Positions 16,037 to 23,589 of a stretch of 64,000 nt of DNA are shown here, one piece after another. Origin of the DNA: a virus; the IMG/VR virus record IMGVR_UViG_3300032294_001887, positions 1 through 64,000 of that record; one strand, 5' to 3'. The position numbers and the translations under genes are program-made. A model generated the notes under the pieces. That model did not search any database and had not been told where the DNA came from. It saw only the letters and a program-made list of their open reading frames with translations. Each line of letters begins with the position of its first letter. Positions within the stretch are counted from its first letter, which is position 1.

Positions 16037-19000
16037 ATGGCAACAGCACAAGCAAACCAAAAAGTATTCGTATCTCCGGGTGTGTATACATCAGAAACAG
16101 ACCTATCTTTCGTAGCCCAAAGTGTGGGTGTTACGACATTAGGTTTAGTGGGAGAAACAATTAAAGGACCGGCCTTTGAACCGATATTTATAACTAATTA
16201 TGATGAGTTCCAAGCCTATTTCGGAGGAACAGAACCTGTCAAATTTTATAATACCCAAATTCCAAAATATGAAGCAGCATACATTGCTAAATCATATTTA
16301 CAACAATCAAATCAATTATTTGTAACAAGAATTCTTGGATTATCGGGATATGATGCAGGACCATCTTGGTCACTTACTGTTACTGCTAATGTAGACCCAA
16401 CAACAATTGGTAATCCATCTACGGGAACATCATTCACGGCAAATTTTACAGGTAATTCATTAAATGATACTGTTGAGTTTATTGGGGGCGCATTACCTTC
16501 TTTTGTGTCGGCAAATTTAAATACTCAATATAGACTACAAGATGGTTCGATATCGACATTGCAAACTGATTTTAATAATTACATAAATTCTATTGTAAAT
16601 TCACCATCAACTTCAGCAACAACTGCAATTATATATGGAGCAATACCTCAAACCGATTATAATTCGGTAACAGGTCAATATACAACAATTAGAAATCCGT
16701 ATGGGTGTGTAAACAATTTTGATAACAATGATTTAACTGCAGGTTCAAATGACAGTTGGTATTATGCAAATTTTGAATTTGCAAATAATGATTCTACATT
16801 AGGTTATACAGGATATTCATTTAATTATGCGGTTTCTAGTTTAATTACAGGTGCGTCAAATACATTCACGGGTACAGTAACCGGTAATTCATATACATTC
16901 ACAGGTACGGCATATAGTGAGTTCAATAATATGGTTGTTGCAACCATTCGTTCAAGAGGTATTTCACTTTACACAAATCAAACTTCAAGTATTAACCATG
17001 GTCCGGTTTATCAAGTAGGAATAGATTATGATAATGGAGGAACTTCAGCACTAAATAATTTACAATTGATTTGTACTGGACAATATTCTGATATTTCAAA
17101 ATCACCTTTCTCAACATTTTTATTATCAGGGGTAACCAAAGATAATGATGTATTCTCATTCGAAACTTCAATGTTAGCGTCATCGTCAAAATACATTACA
17201 AAAGTTTTAGGAGTTGATAATTTTGGAAAATCAAGATTTGAAGTCCCAATTTATGTTGAGGAAGCTTATCAAGGTTCATTAAATTACGCATATAATCAAG
17301 GTTATATAAGAGGATTAGCGTGTGACTTAATTGCATTACCAGGTGCTAGAAGTCAAAACCCAACATCAATTGCTTATAATTTAGAAAGATATCAATCACC
17401 TGAAACACCATATTTGGTTTCGGAATTAAGAGGTAATAAAGTTTATAACTTATTTAAATTTATATCAATTTCTGATGGAGATTCTGCAAACACTGAAATA
17501 AAAGTGTCAATCGCAAATCTTTCATTTAACAATATGTCATTTGATGTGTTAGTTAGAAATTTCTTTGATACTGACTCAAATCCTGTGGTAATTGAAAAAT
17601 TCACAAATTGTAATTTAGACCCATTATCAAATAATTTTATAGCTAAAAAAATTGGTTCATCTGATGGAGAATACGCGTTAATCTCAAGATATATCATGGT
17701 TGAGATGTCTCCAGAAGCACCAATAGATGCTTTACCATGTGGATTTTACGGATATACTCAAAGAGAATATTTGGATTATGACACTTATCCTTCACCGTAT
17801 CCTAAATTTAAGACAAAATATTATTTCCCTGGTGAAGTTATTGCAAATCCACCATTTGGTGTAAATGCTGGAGGAGCACCTATAGAATCCTCAGGAGATA
17901 TTGTACGAAGAAGTTATTTAGGATTTTCAACACAATTTGGAATTGACGAATCTTTCTTAACATATAAGGGTAAACAAACACCTTCAAATTGGATATCCGA
18001 CCCGACGGCTGAAGGTCAACCTTGGAATGTAAGAAGTAAAGGATTCCACATGGATTCAGGTGCAACGGTTGTTACAATCGGAATCAGTTCTAAATCAAGC
18101 GGAGAAACAGCGTTTGAATGTGGTGTGGCTAATTTCACTAGCGACCCTGATACACAAGAAAGTCCATATTATTTCATATATTCAAGAAAATATACGGTAT
18201 GTTTCGCAGGAGGTTTTGACGGGTGGGATATCTACAGAGAATGGAGAACTAACGAAGACAGATTCCAATTAGGAGCAACAGGTTATTTAGCAGGAGCTTA
18301 TCCGGGTTCAAGATACCCAAATGCTACAGGAGACGGATTATTTAAAAGAATTGTTGTTCAAAATAATACTCAAGATTTCGCTAATACAGACTACTACGCT
18401 TACTTACTTGGTATTTTAACATTCGCAAATCCTGAATCTACAAACATTAACGTTTTTGCAACAACTGCGATTGATTATGTTAATAACTCAAACTTAGTAG
18501 AAGAAGCAATTGATATGATTCAATTCTCAAGAGCGGATTCAGTTTATATTGCAACAACACCTGACTATAGAATGTATACACCGGATGCGACTAACTCTCA
18601 AGACATTATTTATTCTCAAGAAGCGGTTGATAATCTAGACAACACAGGAATTGACTCTAACTATACCGCAACTTATTATCCTTGGATATTAGTTCGTGAT
18701 ACCGTTAACAATACACAAATTTATTTACCACCGACAGGTGAAGTTTGTAGAAACTTAGCATTGACTGATAATATATCATTCCCTTGGTTCGCATCAGCGG
18801 GTTACACGAGAGGTCTTGTAAGTTCAATCAAAGCTAGACAAAAACTTACACAGACAGATAGAGATACCTTGTATCAGGGTAGAATTAACCCTATCGCAAC
18901 TTTCTCAGATGTTGGAACTGTAATTTGGGGTAATAAAACTTTGCAAGTTGCTGACTCAGCACTTAACAGATTGAATGTAAGAAGATTATTACTTCAAGCT

Positions 19001-19276
19001 CGTAAATTGATTTCGGCGGTAGCGGTAAGATTATTATTTGAACAAAATGACCAAATCGTTAGACAACAATTCTTGGATAGTGTTAACCCAATCTTGGATT
19101 CAATCAGAAGAGATAGAGGTTTATATGATTTCCGTGTAACTGTATCTTCAACACCTGAAGATTTAGACAGAAATACATTAACAGGTAAAATATATTTGAA
19201 ACCTACTAAGGCGTTAGAGTTCATCGATATCGAGTTCTTCATAACTCCAACAGGTGCTTCATTTGAAAATATCTAA
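16037..19276 (+). CDS. 18: Contractile tail sheath protein (gp18-like)
   Basis: The 1,079-aa protein has the classical sheath N-terminus (KVFVSPGVYTSETDLSF, then TTLGLVGETIKGPAFEP and 'TNYDEFQAYFGG') and the sheath C-terminus ('GRINPIATFSDVGTVIWGNK', 'LNVRRLLLQARKLI', 'FLDSVNPILDSIRRDRGLYD'). T4 gp18 has 659 residues, so about 400 residues are inserted, mainly Ser/Thr/Asn-rich beta sequence between roughly 100 and 700. These should form exposed domains on the outside of the sheath, as the variable insertions of other sheath proteins do. The gene has its own promoter-like motif and is closed by a hairpin terminator. Confidence 0.95.
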   Translation: MATAQANQKVFVSPGVYTSETDLSFVAQSVGVTTLGLVGETIKGPAFEPIFITNYDEFQAYFGGTEPVKFYNTQIPKYEAAYIAKSYLQQSNQLFVTRILGLSGYDAGPSWSLTVTANVDPTTIGNPSTGTSFTANFTGNSLNDTVEFIGGALPSFVSANLNTQYRLQDGSISTLQTDFNNYINSIVNSPSTSATTAIIYGAIPQTDYNSVTGQYTTIRNPYGCVNNFDNNDLTAGSNDSWYYANFEFANNDSTLGYTGYSFNYAVSSLITGASNTFTGTVTGNSYTFTGTAYSEFNNMVVATIRSRGISLYTNQTSSINHGPVYQVGIDYDNGGTSALNNLQLICTGQYSDISKSPFSTFLLSGVTKDNDVFSFETSMLASSSKYITKVLGVDNFGKSRFEVPIYVEEAYQGSLNYAYNQGYIRGLACDLIALPGARSQNPTSIAYNLERYQSPETPYLVSELRGNKVYNLFKFISISDGDSANTEIKVSIANLSFNNMSFDVLVRNFFDTDSNPVVIEKFTNCNLDPLSNNFIAKKIGSSDGEYALISRYIMVEMSPEAPIDALPCGFYGYTQREYLDYDTYPSPYPKFKTKYYFPGEVIANPPFGVNAGGAPIESSGDIVRRSYLGFSTQFGIDESFLTYKGKQTPSNWISDPTAEGQPWNVRSKGFHMDSGATVVTIGISSKSSGETAFECGVANFTSDPDTQESPYYFIYSRKYTVCFAGGFDGWDIYREWRTNEDRFQLGATGYLAGAYPGSRYPNATGDGLFKRIVVQNNTQDFANTDYYAYLLGILTFANPESTNINVFATTAIDYVNNSNLVEEAIDMIQFSRADSVYIATTPDYRMYTPDATNSQDIIYSQEAVDNLDNTGIDSNYTATYYPWILVRDTVNNTQIYLPPTGEVCRNLALTDNISFPWFASAGYTRGLVSSIKARQKLTQTDRDTLYQGRINPIATFSDVGTVIWGNKTLQVADSALNRLNVRRLLLQARKLISAVAVRLLFEQNDQIVRQQFLDSVNPILDSIRRDRGLYDFRVTVSSTPEDLDRNTLTGKIYLKPTKALEFIDIEFFITPTGASFENI

Positions 19277-19320: not shown

Positions 19321-20148
19321 ATGGAAAGACAACTTAAAGAAGGATTTAAACTTGAAGGGACACCAGATATGAAATATTACGCATTCGATTGGGATGATAA
19401 TATTGTTCATATGCCAACTAAAATTATGTTAAAAACTGAAGATGGTGAGGAAATTGGTATGAGTACCGATGACTTTGCAGAGTATAGACATGATTTAGGT
19501 AAAACCCCTGTTCAATATAAAGGAGATACTATTGTCGGTTTTGCGGACAATCCATTTAGAAATTTTAGAACGGAAGGTGACAAAGATTTTTTAGTTGATG
19601 CGATGAGAGCAAAAAAAGGACCGGCATTTGATGACTTTAGAGAAGCAATTAACAATGGGTCTATTTTTTCAATAATTACCGCAAGAGGGCATAATCCTGA
19701 AACCTTAAAACAAGCTATTTATAATTACATTATAAGTGGTTTCAATGGAATAGATAAAAACATGTTAATTAAAAATTTAAAAAAATATAGAACATTTGTG
19801 GATGAAGATGAAATGAGTGACGATGAATTAATTAAATCATATTTAGAGTTAAATAAGTATCACCCTGTTAGTTTTGGTGATGAAGAAGGTGCTGCAAATC
19901 CCGAAGAATTAAAAGTTAAAGCGATGGAAGATTTTGTATCTTATATAAAAGGAATGGCAGGAATACTTAATAAAAGAGCCTTTATTAAAAATGATATCTC
20001 AAATAATTTCATACCAGACATTAGTATTGGTTTTTCAGATGATGATATGAAAAATGTAGAAGTAATGAGTAAACATTTTAAAGATAAACCAGATAATATA
20101 GTTAAGACTTATTCTACTGCTGGAGGTATTAAAAAGTTATATAACTAG
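19321..20148 (+). CDS. HAD-fold protein between sheath and tube genes
   Basis: The 275-aa protein has KYYAFDWDDNIVHMPT near residues 18-33. D23 and D25 form the DxD nucleophile motif I of the haloacid dehalogenase superfamily. IFSIITARGHNPETLKQ, around residue 115-131, gives the motif II Thr and the 'TaR' feature typical of HAD phosphatases and polynucleotide kinase 3'-phosphatases. An acidic HPVSFGDEEG at about residues 180-190 could be the motif IV region. No P-loop kinase domain is present, so it is not a T4 Pnk equivalent. A phosphatase on nucleotides or nucleic acid ends is possible. The position inside the tail cluster is unexplained by function. Confidence 0.75.
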   Translation: MERQLKEGFKLEGTPDMKYYAFDWDDNIVHMPTKIMLKTEDGEEIGMSTDDFAEYRHDLGKTPVQYKGDTIVGFADNPFRNFRTEGDKDFLVDAMRAKKGPAFDDFREAINNGSIFSIITARGHNPETLKQAIYNYIISGFNGIDKNMLIKNLKKYRTFVDEDEMSDDELIKSYLELNKYHPVSFGDEEGAANPEELKVKAMEDFVSYIKGMAGILNKRAFIKNDISNNFIPDISIGFSDDDMKNVEVMSKHFKDKPDNIVKTYSTAGGIKKLYN

Positions 20149-20242: not shown

Positions 20243-20731
20243 ATGGCTGATTTATTAATGAAAATGCCGATACCTTACGAACCGAAACGACAGAATCGTT
20301 TTATTTTAAGGTTTCCATCAAGCTTAGGAATAAATGAATGGTTCGTAGAAACTGCGGCAAGACCATCAATTAAAATTGGTTCAACTGAAATCCAATTTTT
20401 AAATACATCAACATTTGTTGCGGGTAGATTTAATTGGGACCCAATTTCGGTTAAATTCCGTGACCCGATTGGTCCTTCAGCGGCTCAAGCACTTATGGAG
20501 TGGGTTCGTCTACATGCAGAATCTGTTACCGGTCGTATGGGTTATGCCGCGGGTTATAAAAAAGATATCGACCTTGAAATGTTAGACCCAACAGGAGTTG
20601 TTGTTGAAAAATGGATATTATATGGAACTTTTTTAACTGATGTAAATTTTGGTCAATTAAGTTATAGTCAAGACGCATTAGCGGATATTACCGCACAACT
20701 TCGTATGGATAGATGTGTGTTAGTTTATTGA
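20243..20731 (+). CDS. 19: Tail tube protein (gp19-like)
   Basis: The 162-aa protein matches T4 gp19 (163 aa) in length and layout. MKMPIPYEPKRQNRFILRFP at the start is followed by 'INEWFVETAARPSIKIG', 'FNWDPISVKFRDPIGPSAA' and 'WILYGTFLTDVNFGQLSY'. The 'w.v..aarP.i' and 'DLeMLDPTG...e.W.l.G.f..dv.fg.ldys' elements are hallmarks of T4-type tube proteins, which stack as hexamers inside the sheath. It has its own upstream motif and a strong terminator directly downstream, as suits a high-copy structural protein. Confidence 0.95.
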   Translation: MADLLMKMPIPYEPKRQNRFILRFPSSLGINEWFVETAARPSIKIGSTEIQFLNTSTFVAGRFNWDPISVKFRDPIGPSAAQALMEWVRLHAESVTGRMGYAAGYKKDIDLEMLDPTGVVVEKWILYGTFLTDVNFGQLSYSQDALADITAQLRMDRCVLVY

Positions 20732-20772: not shown

Positions 20773-20810
20773 TTAACCGTAAAGCAATAAACTTTACGGT
20801 TAATTTTTTT
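20773..20810 (+). terminator. Strong terminator between tube and chaperone genes
   Basis: A perfect 12-bp stem TTAACCGTAAAG (20773-20784) / CTTTACGGTTAA (20792-20803) with a seven-base loop is followed by seven Ts. It lies only five bases before the next ATG, so the chaperone-like gene would be expressed by read-through or from an unrecognised promoter, which would keep its level low. Confidence 0.9.
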
Positions 20811-20814
20811 ATAT

Positions 20815-21558
20815 ATGGACACACAATCAAGAGACTACGGTCAAGAAAATTTTACATTACCACACGACGTGGTGTTATTACCTTCACAGGGAATTTTTTA
20901 CAAAAACAAAAAGAAATCATTAAAAATTGGTTATCTTACGGCATCTGACGAAAATATTATAATGGCAGGAGCAAATGATTTAACTCTCAATTTATTAAGA
21001 GCAAAAATATATGAACCCGATATTAAAGTTGAAGAACTTATTGAGGGTGATGTTGAGGCTATCCTAATATTTTTGAGAAATACTGGGTTTGGACCTGAAA
21101 TTACTCTAAATTTAACTGACCCTGTTACAAAAAAACCTTTTCAATCAAATGTATTGTTAGACCAGTTACCTGTTATTAGTGGTCAAAAACCAAATGATGA
21201 TGGAACTTTTGTGATTACTCTACCAAAAACGCAATCATCAATTAAATTAAAACCATTAAACTATGGAGAGATTATGGAGATTAGTAAATTGGCGGATTCA
21301 TATCCTCAAGGTAGGGTTGTTCCAAAAATTACTTGGAGATTACAAAAAGAAATTGTTGAGGTTGATGGTTCTACCGATAAATCAGTTATTTCTAAGTTTG
21401 TTGAGTCCATGCCAATTGTGGATTCAAAACACATTAGAAAATTTATGAATGAAAATGAACCAAGATTAGATATGACTAAAACAATTATGGCCCCGTCCGG
21501 AGAAAAGCTAATAGTGAATGTTGGCTTTGGGGTGGACTTTTTTCGCCCTTTCTTCTGA
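20815..21558 (+). CDS. Tail assembly chaperone / gp26-like protein, zero-frame product
   Basis: The 247-aa zero-frame protein has 'FTLPHDVVLLPSQGIFYKNK', a long middle domain and 'IMAPSGEKLIVNVGFGVDFF'. This resembles T4-type gp26 baseplate-hub/assembly proteins, in which an 'aps.g.....p.. f..FF' element precedes a short C-terminal helical region. Here that helical region is present but in the +1 frame after a TTTTTT run (21538-21543), while the zero frame ends in the unusual RPFF. The gene lies exactly between the tube and tape measure genes, the standard position of frameshifted tail assembly chaperones in long-tailed phages. It probably escorts the tape measure during tail assembly. Confidence 0.75.
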   Translation: MDTQSRDYGQENFTLPHDVVLLPSQGIFYKNKKKSLKIGYLTASDENIIMAGANDLTLNLLRAKIYEPDIKVEELIEGDVEAILIFLRNTGFGPEITLNLTDPVTKKPFQSNVLLDQLPVISGQKPNDDGTFVITLPKTQSSIKLKPLNYGEIMEISKLADSYPQGRVVPKITWRLQKEIVEVDGSTDKSVISKFVESMPIVDSKHIRKFMNENEPRLDMTKTIMAPSGEKLIVNVGFGVDFFRPFF

Positions 21559-21697
21559 TTATAGGAAAAGTCAGATAGATGAATTTTACTATCTGAACAC
21601 ATTGATGAAGATTACTTATCAAGATTTTGAAAGAATGCCAATATTTGTTAGAAAATATTTATTGGATAAATGGATAGAAGATAATAAGAAGGACTAA
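21541..21697 (+). CDS. +1-frame extension of the chaperone (frameshift product C-terminus)
   Basis: Reading on in the +1 frame after the six-T run gives about 50 further residues: ALSSDYRKSQIDEFYYLN, then LMKITYQDFERMPIFVRKY and a charged end, stopping at TAA 21695-21697. The 'eef..L.......ydf..MPi..r.y...kl' pattern resembles the C-terminus of gp26-type proteins, so it looks like real coding sequence. The full product would be about 293 aa. Either a +1 (or -2) ribosomal frameshift occurs on UUUUUUC, or the run contains one extra T from sequencing. The terminator hairpin overlaps this extension's stop codon, as expected if the gene truly ends here. Confidence 0.65.
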
Positions 21698-21715
21698 TTT
21701 TTTAGTCCTTCTTCT
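21687..21715 (+). terminator. Terminator overlapping the stop of the chaperone extension
   Basis: The 11-bp stem AGAAGGACTAA (21687-21697) / TTAGTCCTTCT (21702-21712) has a TTTT loop. The 5' arm contains the stop codon. The hairpin is followed by the TATTTATA motif of the tape measure gene. Confidence 0.8.
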
Positions 21716-21741: not shown

Positions 21742-23589
21742 ATGGCAGATTATAATCCAGAAGACCAAGGTAGTTTTGACGAGGCTAAAAAAAGTTTAGA
21801 AGCTTTTAGTGACCTCGCTAACCAAACAGTACTTTCTATTTTTAAGATGTATGAGGGTGCTGATAAGATTAACAACGCCTTTCTACAAGGAAGAACTCGT
21901 TTAGACGAGATGAGTGACGCTGTTGCAAAATCGGCAGCCGGTGTCCTTCGTTTGGGTGGGAATCTTGGTGATGTTAATACCACTATGATAGGTATTGCTG
22001 ATGGTGCTAGAAGGAATGTAATTGCGACAGAAGACCAAGTTAGTAAGTTATATGCGGCATCTACAATTCTCAATACTACCTCAAGTTCCTTAGTTGAAAA
22101 TTTTGCGGAAGCGGGGTACGAGGTATCTCAAGTTGGAGTTAATTTACAGGATTCTATTCAGTATGTTCAAAGTGTCGGTCTTAACGCCAAAACAGTTGTA
22201 AAAGATGTTGCGAATAACATGGAGTTGATGAATAGATTCAACTTCAGTGACGGTGTTCAAGGATTGACAAAAATGGCTGCTCAAGCTTCAATGTTGAGAT
22301 TTGATATGCAAAACACTGCTAATTTCGCAGATAAAGTAATGAGTCCTGAGAAAGCAATTGAAGCGGCTGCCGGGTTCCAAAGACTAGGTGTTAATATTGG
22401 TAACTTGGTTGACCCATTTGCGTTAATGAATGACTCAATTAATAATCCTGGTGCATTACAAGATAGTATTATTAAAGCCACAAAAAAATATACAGAGTTT
22501 GACGAAAAAACAAAATCATTTAAGATAAACCCACAAGGTATTTTGATGTTAAAAGAATTGTCGGATGTTACTGGAATTAGTGCAAGAGAACTTTCAAAAA
22601 CCGCATTAGCTGCCGCCGATTTAGATAAAAGGTTATCGGCTATTAGTCCATCATTGAAATTTGAAAAAGAGGAAGACAGACAGTTGTTGGCTAATATGGC
22701 AACAAAGAAGGATGGTGAATATGTTATACAAATTAAAGATGACCAAGGGGCGATTGAATACAAAAAACTTGGAGATATTACGGCAGATGAATTTAAAGAG
22801 TTAAGAAAAAAACAAGATGAGGCACCTAAAACACTTGAAGAAATTCAAATTAGTCAATTAGATTATTTAAAAGACTCAAGTTCATCATTAAGGTCAATAC
22901 TTGCAAAAGGGACTTTTGGGGCTGCAGGGTCTGCATTCGTTAGGGGAAATTTTTTAGGCGCCGAAAGAATTAGTAGGGGATTTACGGGTTCACTTGATGA
23001 AAATATTCCTAAAAGTGCTGAAATAATAAAAGATATTAATAGTTCTATGGAGAAAATGAAGGAACTTTTTAATATAAAAGAACTTGGTAAAATAAGTGAT
23101 GCTGACTTTGCAACTAAACTCTCAAAACTTGAAAGTGAAGTTAAAAGTAAAGTAAATACTCTTGGTGAAAAAGGTATTGAAAAGTTAATAAAAACTTTTG
23201 AAGATACTAATAAAAAAATTGATGGAACAAGTGGGATTGAAGAAAAATTTAAAAAATATAGTTCAGATATGTTAGCCGAGATTGGAAGACCACAACAATC
23301 ATCTAATAAAATTTCTGGTACTGTAACCAAATCACCAATATCAAGAAATAGTTTTTTAGGTCAACAAAATGTTAACCAAACATCCGCAACAGGTTCTTTT
23401 GTAAAAGAAATTAACCAAAATATTAAGGTTGAAATTGACTACAAAACCCCGACAGGTGGAGATAGTGAACAAAAAATGAAAGATTATTTTGACAAACAAT
23501 TTAAACTAATGACTCAAACAGAAGAATTTAAAAGGATTAATTATGAATATCAGTTACAAATGAAAAAAGAACTTGGATTAAAAAGGTAA
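21742..23589 (+). CDS. Tail tape measure-like protein (gp29 position)
   Basis: The 615-aa protein is largely helical and Ala/Ser/Lys-rich: FDEAKKSLEAFSDLANQTVL, then repeated heptad-like stretches (LSKTALAAADLDKRL), and a long coiled region at residues ~440-520 (SSMEKMKELFNIKEL...). The length is close to T4 gp29 (590 aa), which is tape measure and hub component. The C-terminus (EFKRINYEYQLQMKKELGLK) is charged and helical. It follows the chaperone-like gene directly, as tape measures usually do. There are no obvious transmembrane segments or peptidoglycan-hydrolase domain. The ruler role is inferred from position and composition. Confidence 0.7.
   Translation: MADYNPEDQGSFDEAKKSLEAFSDLANQTVLSIFKMYEGADKINNAFLQGRTRLDEMSDAVAKSAAGVLRLGGNLGDVNTTMIGIADGARRNVIATEDQVSKLYAASTILNTTSSSLVENFAEAGYEVSQVGVNLQDSIQYVQSVGLNAKTVVKDVANNMELMNRFNFSDGVQGLTKMAAQASMLRFDMQNTANFADKVMSPEKAIEAAAGFQRLGVNIGNLVDPFALMNDSINNPGALQDSIIKATKKYTEFDEKTKSFKINPQGILMLKELSDVTGISARELSKTALAAADLDKRLSAISPSLKFEKEEDRQLLANMATKKDGEYVIQIKDDQGAIEYKKLGDITADEFKELRKKQDEAPKTLEEIQISQLDYLKDSSSSLRSILAKGTFGAAGSAFVRGNFLGAERISRGFTGSLDENIPKSAEIIKDINSSMEKMKELFNIKELGKISDADFATKLSKLESEVKSKVNTLGEKGIEKLIKTFEDTNKKIDGTSGIEEKFKKYSSDMLAEIGRPQQSSNKISGTVTKSPISRNSFLGQQNVNQTSATGSFVKEINQNIKVEIDYKTPTGGDSEQKMKDYFDKQFKLMTQTEEFKRINYEYQLQMKKELGLKR

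Follow-up and report, generated by a model that had tools for sequence, protein, structure and literature searches.

In the window, the stretch of 64,000 nt analysed here (positions 1 to 64,000 of IMGVR_UViG_3300032294_001887), one gene most likely yields two tail assembly chaperones: a short product, TAC-N, by termination and a long product, TAC-NC, by a minority +1 slip of tRNA-Phe. We put the probability of this reading at roughly 0.86. The features of the locus, from the tube gene to the ORF in the tape-measure position, lie on the plus strand. TAC-N (247 amino acids) is encoded in the zero frame at 20815-21558, which terminates as GVDFFRPFF followed by TGA (21556-21558), 12 bases beyond a TTTTTT run at 21538-21543. 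The +1 frame is open across this TGA. Its extension, TAC-C (21545-21697), comprises 50 codons plus the stop codon TAA at 21695-21697, which is located within a 12-pair hairpin (21686-21713). For a +1 shift, with GAC TTT followed by TTC GCC CTT TCT, the fused product has 293 amino acids. The tryptic peptide expected at the joint is LIVNVGFGVDFFALSSDYR for a +1 and LIVNVGFGVDFFFALSSDYR for a -2 shift, and LIVNVGFGVDFFRPFF for the short form. The original prediction had placed the end of the zero frame just after the T run and had described a +1 frame of 50 residues with its stop in a terminator stem; both descriptions are right in coordinates and sequence.

The +1-frame extension is real and reflects neither a sequencing error nor chance. 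A first scan of viral contigs gave 80 close relatives, 79 of which reach the junction; site and stop are identical in all 79, and the +1 frame is open to each contig's limit. After further scans the survey comprised 336 loci, window included, with 166 distinct junctions; the window clade contributes 125 distinct haplotypes, mostly from independent metagenomes. An extension profile was used to place the frame of TAC-C relative to TAC-N. The extension was found in the +1 frame in 327 of the 336 loci; three loci have it in the +2 (-1) frame, five, on cut contigs, gave no extension match and one gave no TAC-N match. With homologous +1-frame extensions at 327/336 loci, this is more than a chance open frame. 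These comparative data support the proposal, made from the window alone, that translation is programmed to enter the +1 frame at the tail assembly chaperone position.

The same proposal had named a single extra T as an alternative, i.e. a sequencing or assembly error that splits one continuous gene, and had suggested that raw reads be checked for five versus six Ts and that the junction be compared in related phages. The site is indeed a homopolymer run, and a single frame could be restored by one base. However, the sequence is TTTTTTC (shift site TTT TTT C, 21538-21544) in 124 of the 125 haplotypes and TTCTTTC in the remaining one, and the frame change is present in every one of them. It is also found where there is no long T run, in relatives with AGC TTT CTT TGG, and in isolated, finished phage genomes. 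Furthermore, the zero-frame codons 3' of the site are conserved too. An error of this kind is therefore rejected, with a probability close to nil.

Variability along the gene was compared among the 125 window-clade haplotypes. Downstream of the zero-frame stop, the entropies of codon positions 1/2/3 in the +1 frame are 0.48/0.27/0.96, next to 0.48/0.28/1.08 for the zero frame upstream. Pairwise pN/pS of the downstream region is 0.18 in the +1 frame compared with 1.6 and 0.9 in the other two frames, and the upstream gene has a value of 0.29 in its own frame. From the codon-position entropies and the pN/pS of 0.18 it follows that the extension codes for protein in the +1 frame.

There is hardly any variation at the end of the zero frame and in its codons either, so that both frames appear to be under selection. 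Only 7 of 87 degenerate columns with an invariant amino acid are also codon-invariant in the 125 haplotypes, and five of these seven lie within -9 to +15 of the shift site. They are CAA near the start, GGA at -39, GGG at -9, TTT at +3 and CCT, TTC and TTC at +9 to +15. The last three are located where both frames overlap, and some changes that would be silent for the long product never occur there. Consequently, the tail read in the zero frame, RPFF or LPFF, matters too, or else the nucleotides as such do. The zero-frame stop codon is TGA in 102 haplotypes, TAA in 21 and GGA in two; in the latter two the zero frame is closed two codons further on by the next in-frame TAG.

A coding extension could also be expressed as a separate gene, by an internal start or by re-initiation and without any fusion. 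An ATG in the +1 frame is present at 21518 in the window and in most haplotypes, and two relatives, L286 and L291, carry TAC-C in a frame of its own that opens with an ATG directly at the stop of TAC-N. Nevertheless, a separate gene is very unlikely for the window. A TAG in the +1 frame lies 5 nt 5' of the site in three haplotypes (L047, L153 and L154), and 8 of the 125 haplotypes have no +1-frame start codon before +55, which is well inside the conserved extension. In addition, this C-terminal domain is part of a single-frame fusion in T4 gp51.

Several properties of the junction bear on how ribosomes could pass from TAC-N into the extension. In the window clade the conserved site, TTT_TTT_C or in one case TTC_TTT_C, is followed by CGT in 73, CGC in 45 and CTC in 7 haplotypes as the A-site codon. 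Per 1000 codons of the window, CGC is used 0.37 times, CTC 1.6 times and CGT 2.57 times. The window contains an in-frame UUU_CGN motif (TTT_CGC, 21541-21546) inside the overlap, and CGY is the A-site codon in 118/125 haplotypes. The 166 junctions have TTT TTT, TTT CTT, TTC TTT or TTT CTA as joint codons, with CGT, CGC, CTC, TGG, AGT or CAC after TTT TTT; the L058 and L151 types (four rows) were assigned by eye as TTT TTT C. In the immuto clade TGG or CTT takes the place of CGY. This indicates that the P-site UUU is the constant element and the A-site codon the variable one, and that the rare-codon part is not general. The locus does not conform to a -1 frameshift at X_XXY_YYZ, since the window and the 327 loci all carry their extension in the +1 frame.

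The direction of the slip had been left as +1 or -2. The window's TTTTTTC by itself allows both with pairing. A -2 slippage on the T run, as known for phage Mu (PMC5009743), would lead to an identical frame and to the same fusion with one additional phenylalanine, and a fully paired -2 slip on UUU_UUU can be formed in 122 of the 166 junctions, including that of the window. It is impossible, however, in the other 44, which comprise TTT CTT TGG, TTC TTT TGG, TTC TTT CGT, TTT CTA and similar sequences (e.g. AGC TTT CTT TGG, GGC TTC TTT TGG and GAA TTC TTT CGT). One of these, L156 with TTC TTT CGT, bars a fully paired -2 slip within the window clade itself. In contrast, full re-pairing of tRNA-Phe after a slip of one base forward, from UUU to UUU or UUC, is possible in 166/166 junctions. 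Since +1 is open to all junctions and a fully paired -2 is barred in 44, parsimony favours +1 for all of them. Of the two directions originally considered, +1 is hence the better backed, and -2 is unlikely.

The T run could also provoke slippage of the RNA polymerase, which would yield mixed mRNAs without any shift of the ribosome. The run has six T, and suitable insertions or deletions would give the same product frame. Six T are short for polymerase slippage, though, and the frame relation is kept in relatives with three or four consecutive T (AAC TTT CTA, AGC TTT CTT TGG, GGC TTC TTT TGG), which makes this explanation extremely unlikely.

We therefore prefer the +1 slip of tRNA-Phe on the ribosome, for which the following sequence of events is proposed. 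The majority of ribosomes would terminate at the TGA at 21556-21558 and release TAC-N. A minority would pause with peptidyl-tRNA-Phe on the second UUU (21541-21543) of UUU_UUU_CGC, probably because the A-site codon CGC is very rare. The tRNA-Phe (anticodon GAA) would then move one base forward, from UUU at 21541-21543 to UUC at 21542-21544, where it would pair better. Reading would continue with GCC CUU UCU and produce the 293-residue TAC-NC. What the comparison shows is conserved dual coding, the frame of the extension, the conservation of the site and the homology; we infer the slippage, its rate, the +1 direction for exactly this sequence and the part played in tail assembly. By analogy with lambda gpG/gpGT, many short copies may bind the tape measure during tail assembly, and a few long copies may recruit tube subunits.

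A candidate stimulator of the shift is a GGGG run at 21529-21532, which consists of a Gly codon (GGG, 21529-21531) and the first base of the next codon. The GGG codon is found in 125/125 haplotypes and the GGGG is invariant; at the adjacent Gly position all four synonymous codons occur. In the window, GGG accounts for 12.5% of the Gly codons and is thus a minor one. The run ends 8 nt 5' of the presumed P codon, the second TTT, compared with a spacing of 3 nt in prfB. A stimulator of the Shine-Dalgarno type was considered and discarded: GGGG is not invariant in the immuto clade, where GGA, GGT, GGC and AAT occur too, and the spacing does not fit prfB. A search for downstream RNA structure gave no convincing stimulator (z -1.4, not significant).

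The identity of TAC-N was assessed with sequence profiles and a structural model. TAC-N matches the Pfam family T4_baseplate (PF12322) above the cut-off with an E-value of 2.6e-6 and phrog_150 with an E-value of 5.5e-11. Of the 282 positions of phrog_150, T4 gp26 covers 14-235 and T4 gp51 covers 13-280; the short form from the window covers 18-233, and the fused form covers 19-252 with a higher score. According to this coverage, the short form is comparable to gp26 and the long form to gp51. The product of the window is a member of the T4 gp26/gp51 family (phrog_150/PF12322), its long form reaching into the C-terminal part. A direct HMMER search based on the first fused profile missed T4 gp51 and reached gp26 only with an E-value of 1.3; the link to both is provided by phrog_150 and by a profile-profile comparison. 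In the latter, a profile of 90 fused +1 products was set against one of the fused products of S-PM2, P-SSM2, Cr30 and PhiW-14 together with gp51. The two profiles align over both TAC-N and TAC-C with a probability of 98.8 and an E-value of 5e-17.

The AlphaFold model (pLDDT 86) covers TAC-N only. It matches the baseplate hub subunit of SP-15, CP220 and many other T4 gp26-like proteins. Among PDB entries, supportive but modest scores were obtained for YqbN (3klu; Z 5.7, rmsd 3.6 over 83 residues), which we take to be a prophage tail-chaperone-type protein of B. subtilis, and for the tail assembly chaperone of HK97 (2ob9; Z 5.1, rmsd 4.8 over 95 residues), whose fold may be somewhat similar; the other matches have Z-scores of 2.6 and below. 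Judged by its protein family, the locus most likely encodes a short/long tail assembly chaperone pair (TAC-N/TAC-NC, of the lambda gpG/gpGT type) of a T4-like phage.

The position of the gene fits a tail assembly chaperone. The gene for a gp19-like tail tube protein (20243-20731; phrog_4542, E-value 2e-24) lies directly 5' of the chaperone gene. On the 3' side, a 615-residue ORF (21742-23589) occupies the tape-measure position and is identified by position only; it gave no significant match in Pfam or PHROGs and none to the downstream ORFs of the relatives. In immuto, LIS04 and SP-15 annotated tape measures come after the chaperone gene. Terminator-like hairpins flank the chaperone gene on both sides. 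One (20773-20803; a 12-pair stem and a T run) lies in the gap between the tube gene and TAC-N, and the other is the hairpin at 21686-21713, which overlaps the TAC-C stop codon and is followed by a T-rich tail. They suggest a transcription unit of its own or controlled read-through for the chaperone gene. This resembles Listeria phage CKA15, for which terminators after the tube and chaperone genes were reported (PMC12282133). Further upstream, the tail sheath (16037-19276) has 1079 residues, which is much longer than T4 gp18, and sheath families match its C-terminal part only (about 850-1077). Between the sheath and tube genes there is an ORF of 275 residues (19321-20148, YAFDWDDNIVHMPTKI...) without a clear family match in Pfam or PHROGs; its DWDDN motif resembles HAD-type proteins.

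Programmed frameshifting of tail assembly chaperones is known. A conserved tail-assembly frameshift was reportedly described by Xu, Hendrix and Duda in 2004. As here, lambda gpG/gpGT are encoded beside the tube gene in two overlapping frames and give a short and an extended chaperone, but the shift in lambda is -1. Different phages use -1, -2 or +1 shifts for their chaperones, and the feature was called conserved "except T4" (PMC5009743). The original remark that such shifts are not well documented for T4-type phages is right in part: T4-like chaperone genes have been identified by Vladimirov, Gautam and Davidson (2022, Virology 566:9-15), according to whom, as summarised in PMC10885494 and cited in PMC12846349, T4-like phages have two chaperone genes, a short one and a long one. 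The TAC-N/TAC-NC proteins of T4 (genes 26/51), S-PM2 and P-SSM2 share with the window the family (phrog_150/PF12322), the short/long pair and the Phe-Phe joint. In T4, however, the two forms come from two genes instead of one, and S-PM2, P-SSM2, Cr30 and PhiW-14 have T_TTT_TTC-type sites with a -1-frame extension.

The site itself has counterparts in other systems. A +1 shift at UUU_CGN is backed by peptide evidence for influenza A PA-X (PMC3498833) and was inferred in amalgaviruses (PMC5052127). As in the window, a UUU in the P site is followed by a CGN Arg codon, and re-pairing from UUU to UUC leads into the +1 frame. Since these are eukaryotic RNA viruses with unrelated genes, and the window belongs to a dsDNA phage, the likeness is convergent; moreover, the UCC codon preceding UUU in PA-X is absent here. 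In haloviruses of the HF1 group, a +1 shift between the tube and tape-measure genes was likewise proposed for the tail chaperone, at TTT-CGC within a perfectly conserved stretch of 15 bp (PMC7230728); these are archaeal viruses, unlike the phage of the window. prfB (RF2), including that of Flavobacterium johnsoniae (PMC8710568), also shows a +1 slip, on a P codon rich in pyrimidines and with a G-rich element on its 5' side. In prfB, however, a stop codon occupies the A site and the Shine-Dalgarno-like element is 3 nt from the P codon, whereas the window clade has a sense codon (CGY or CTC) in the A site and the GGGG 8 nt 5' of the second TTT, so that the site is not of the prfB type.

The arrangement seen in the window extends to distant relatives. 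At 22-33% identity, the same +1 arrangement is found in Flavobacterium phage immuto, SP-15, LIS04, Streptococcus phage GXN1 and LR756508, and Rhodothermus phage RM378 has it as well. A homologous extension starts at the same Phe-Phe but in the -1 frame in S-PM2 (TCT TTT TTC), P-SSM2 (AGT TTT TTC), Cr30 (GAT TTT TTT C) and PhiW-14 (GAT TTT TTC). In a tree of 29 rows the -1/T4 and the +1 lineages part with support of 100/100; its details are unsure due to the long branches of T4 gp51 and RM378. Within the +1 lineage the tree contains one -1 case (LR756511) and one loss (L286/L291). LR756511 (locus L087), an uncultured phage of 595 kb, carries a -1-frame extension, apparently joined at GGT TTT TTC TTC, and its zero frame continues for more than 20 codons past this sequence. 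In L286 (at about 2226) and L291 (at about 2214, both in locus coordinates), TAC-C is in the +2 frame and its initial ATG sits at the stop of TAC-N (TAGAAATCATGA in L291), and the slippery TTT is changed to TTC. Their sequences point to an apparent replacement of the frameshift by a separate, possibly coupled gene.

The 74.8-kb record and six related contigs of 100-182 kb each hold a single copy of the family, with the limitation that the records may be fragments. With one family member each, the six contigs seemingly do not use the two-gene arrangement of T4. It is probable that the T4-related phages infecting Bacteroidota, Firmicutes and related hosts constitute a single old lineage, in which +1 slippage of tRNA-Phe on UUU (UUU_CGY, UUU_UGG, UUU_CUU) gives rise to the long chaperone, as a bacterial equivalent of the shift in influenza PA-X. 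In the sister lineage the slip at these Phe-Phe codons would be -1; T4 would have given up the shift for a duplicated gene, and L286/L291 for a separate ORF. This points to a conserved frameshift whose direction can vary from one sister lineage to the other, with protein and joint unchanged.

The new part, judged by the literature consulted, is apparently the forward-frame extension at UUU across a whole T4-like lineage, including phages of Flavobacterium, Rhodothermus, Bacillus, Listeria and Streptococcus, for which the comparative evidence is strong. A literature search found no description of a Flavobacterium phage case. The locus offers a clean prokaryotic example of +1 shifting of the UUU_CGN type with more than 100 natural variants. 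In the annotation of known relatives (SP-15, immuto) the long chaperone is missing and the extension is unrecognised, from which a simple rule for re-annotation follows. Within the stretch of the chaperone extension, small hypothetical genes are annotated in SP-15 (SP15_046 in NC_031245; L086:3240-3359) and in immuto (KNV73_gp038 in NC_055915; L084:3336-3446).
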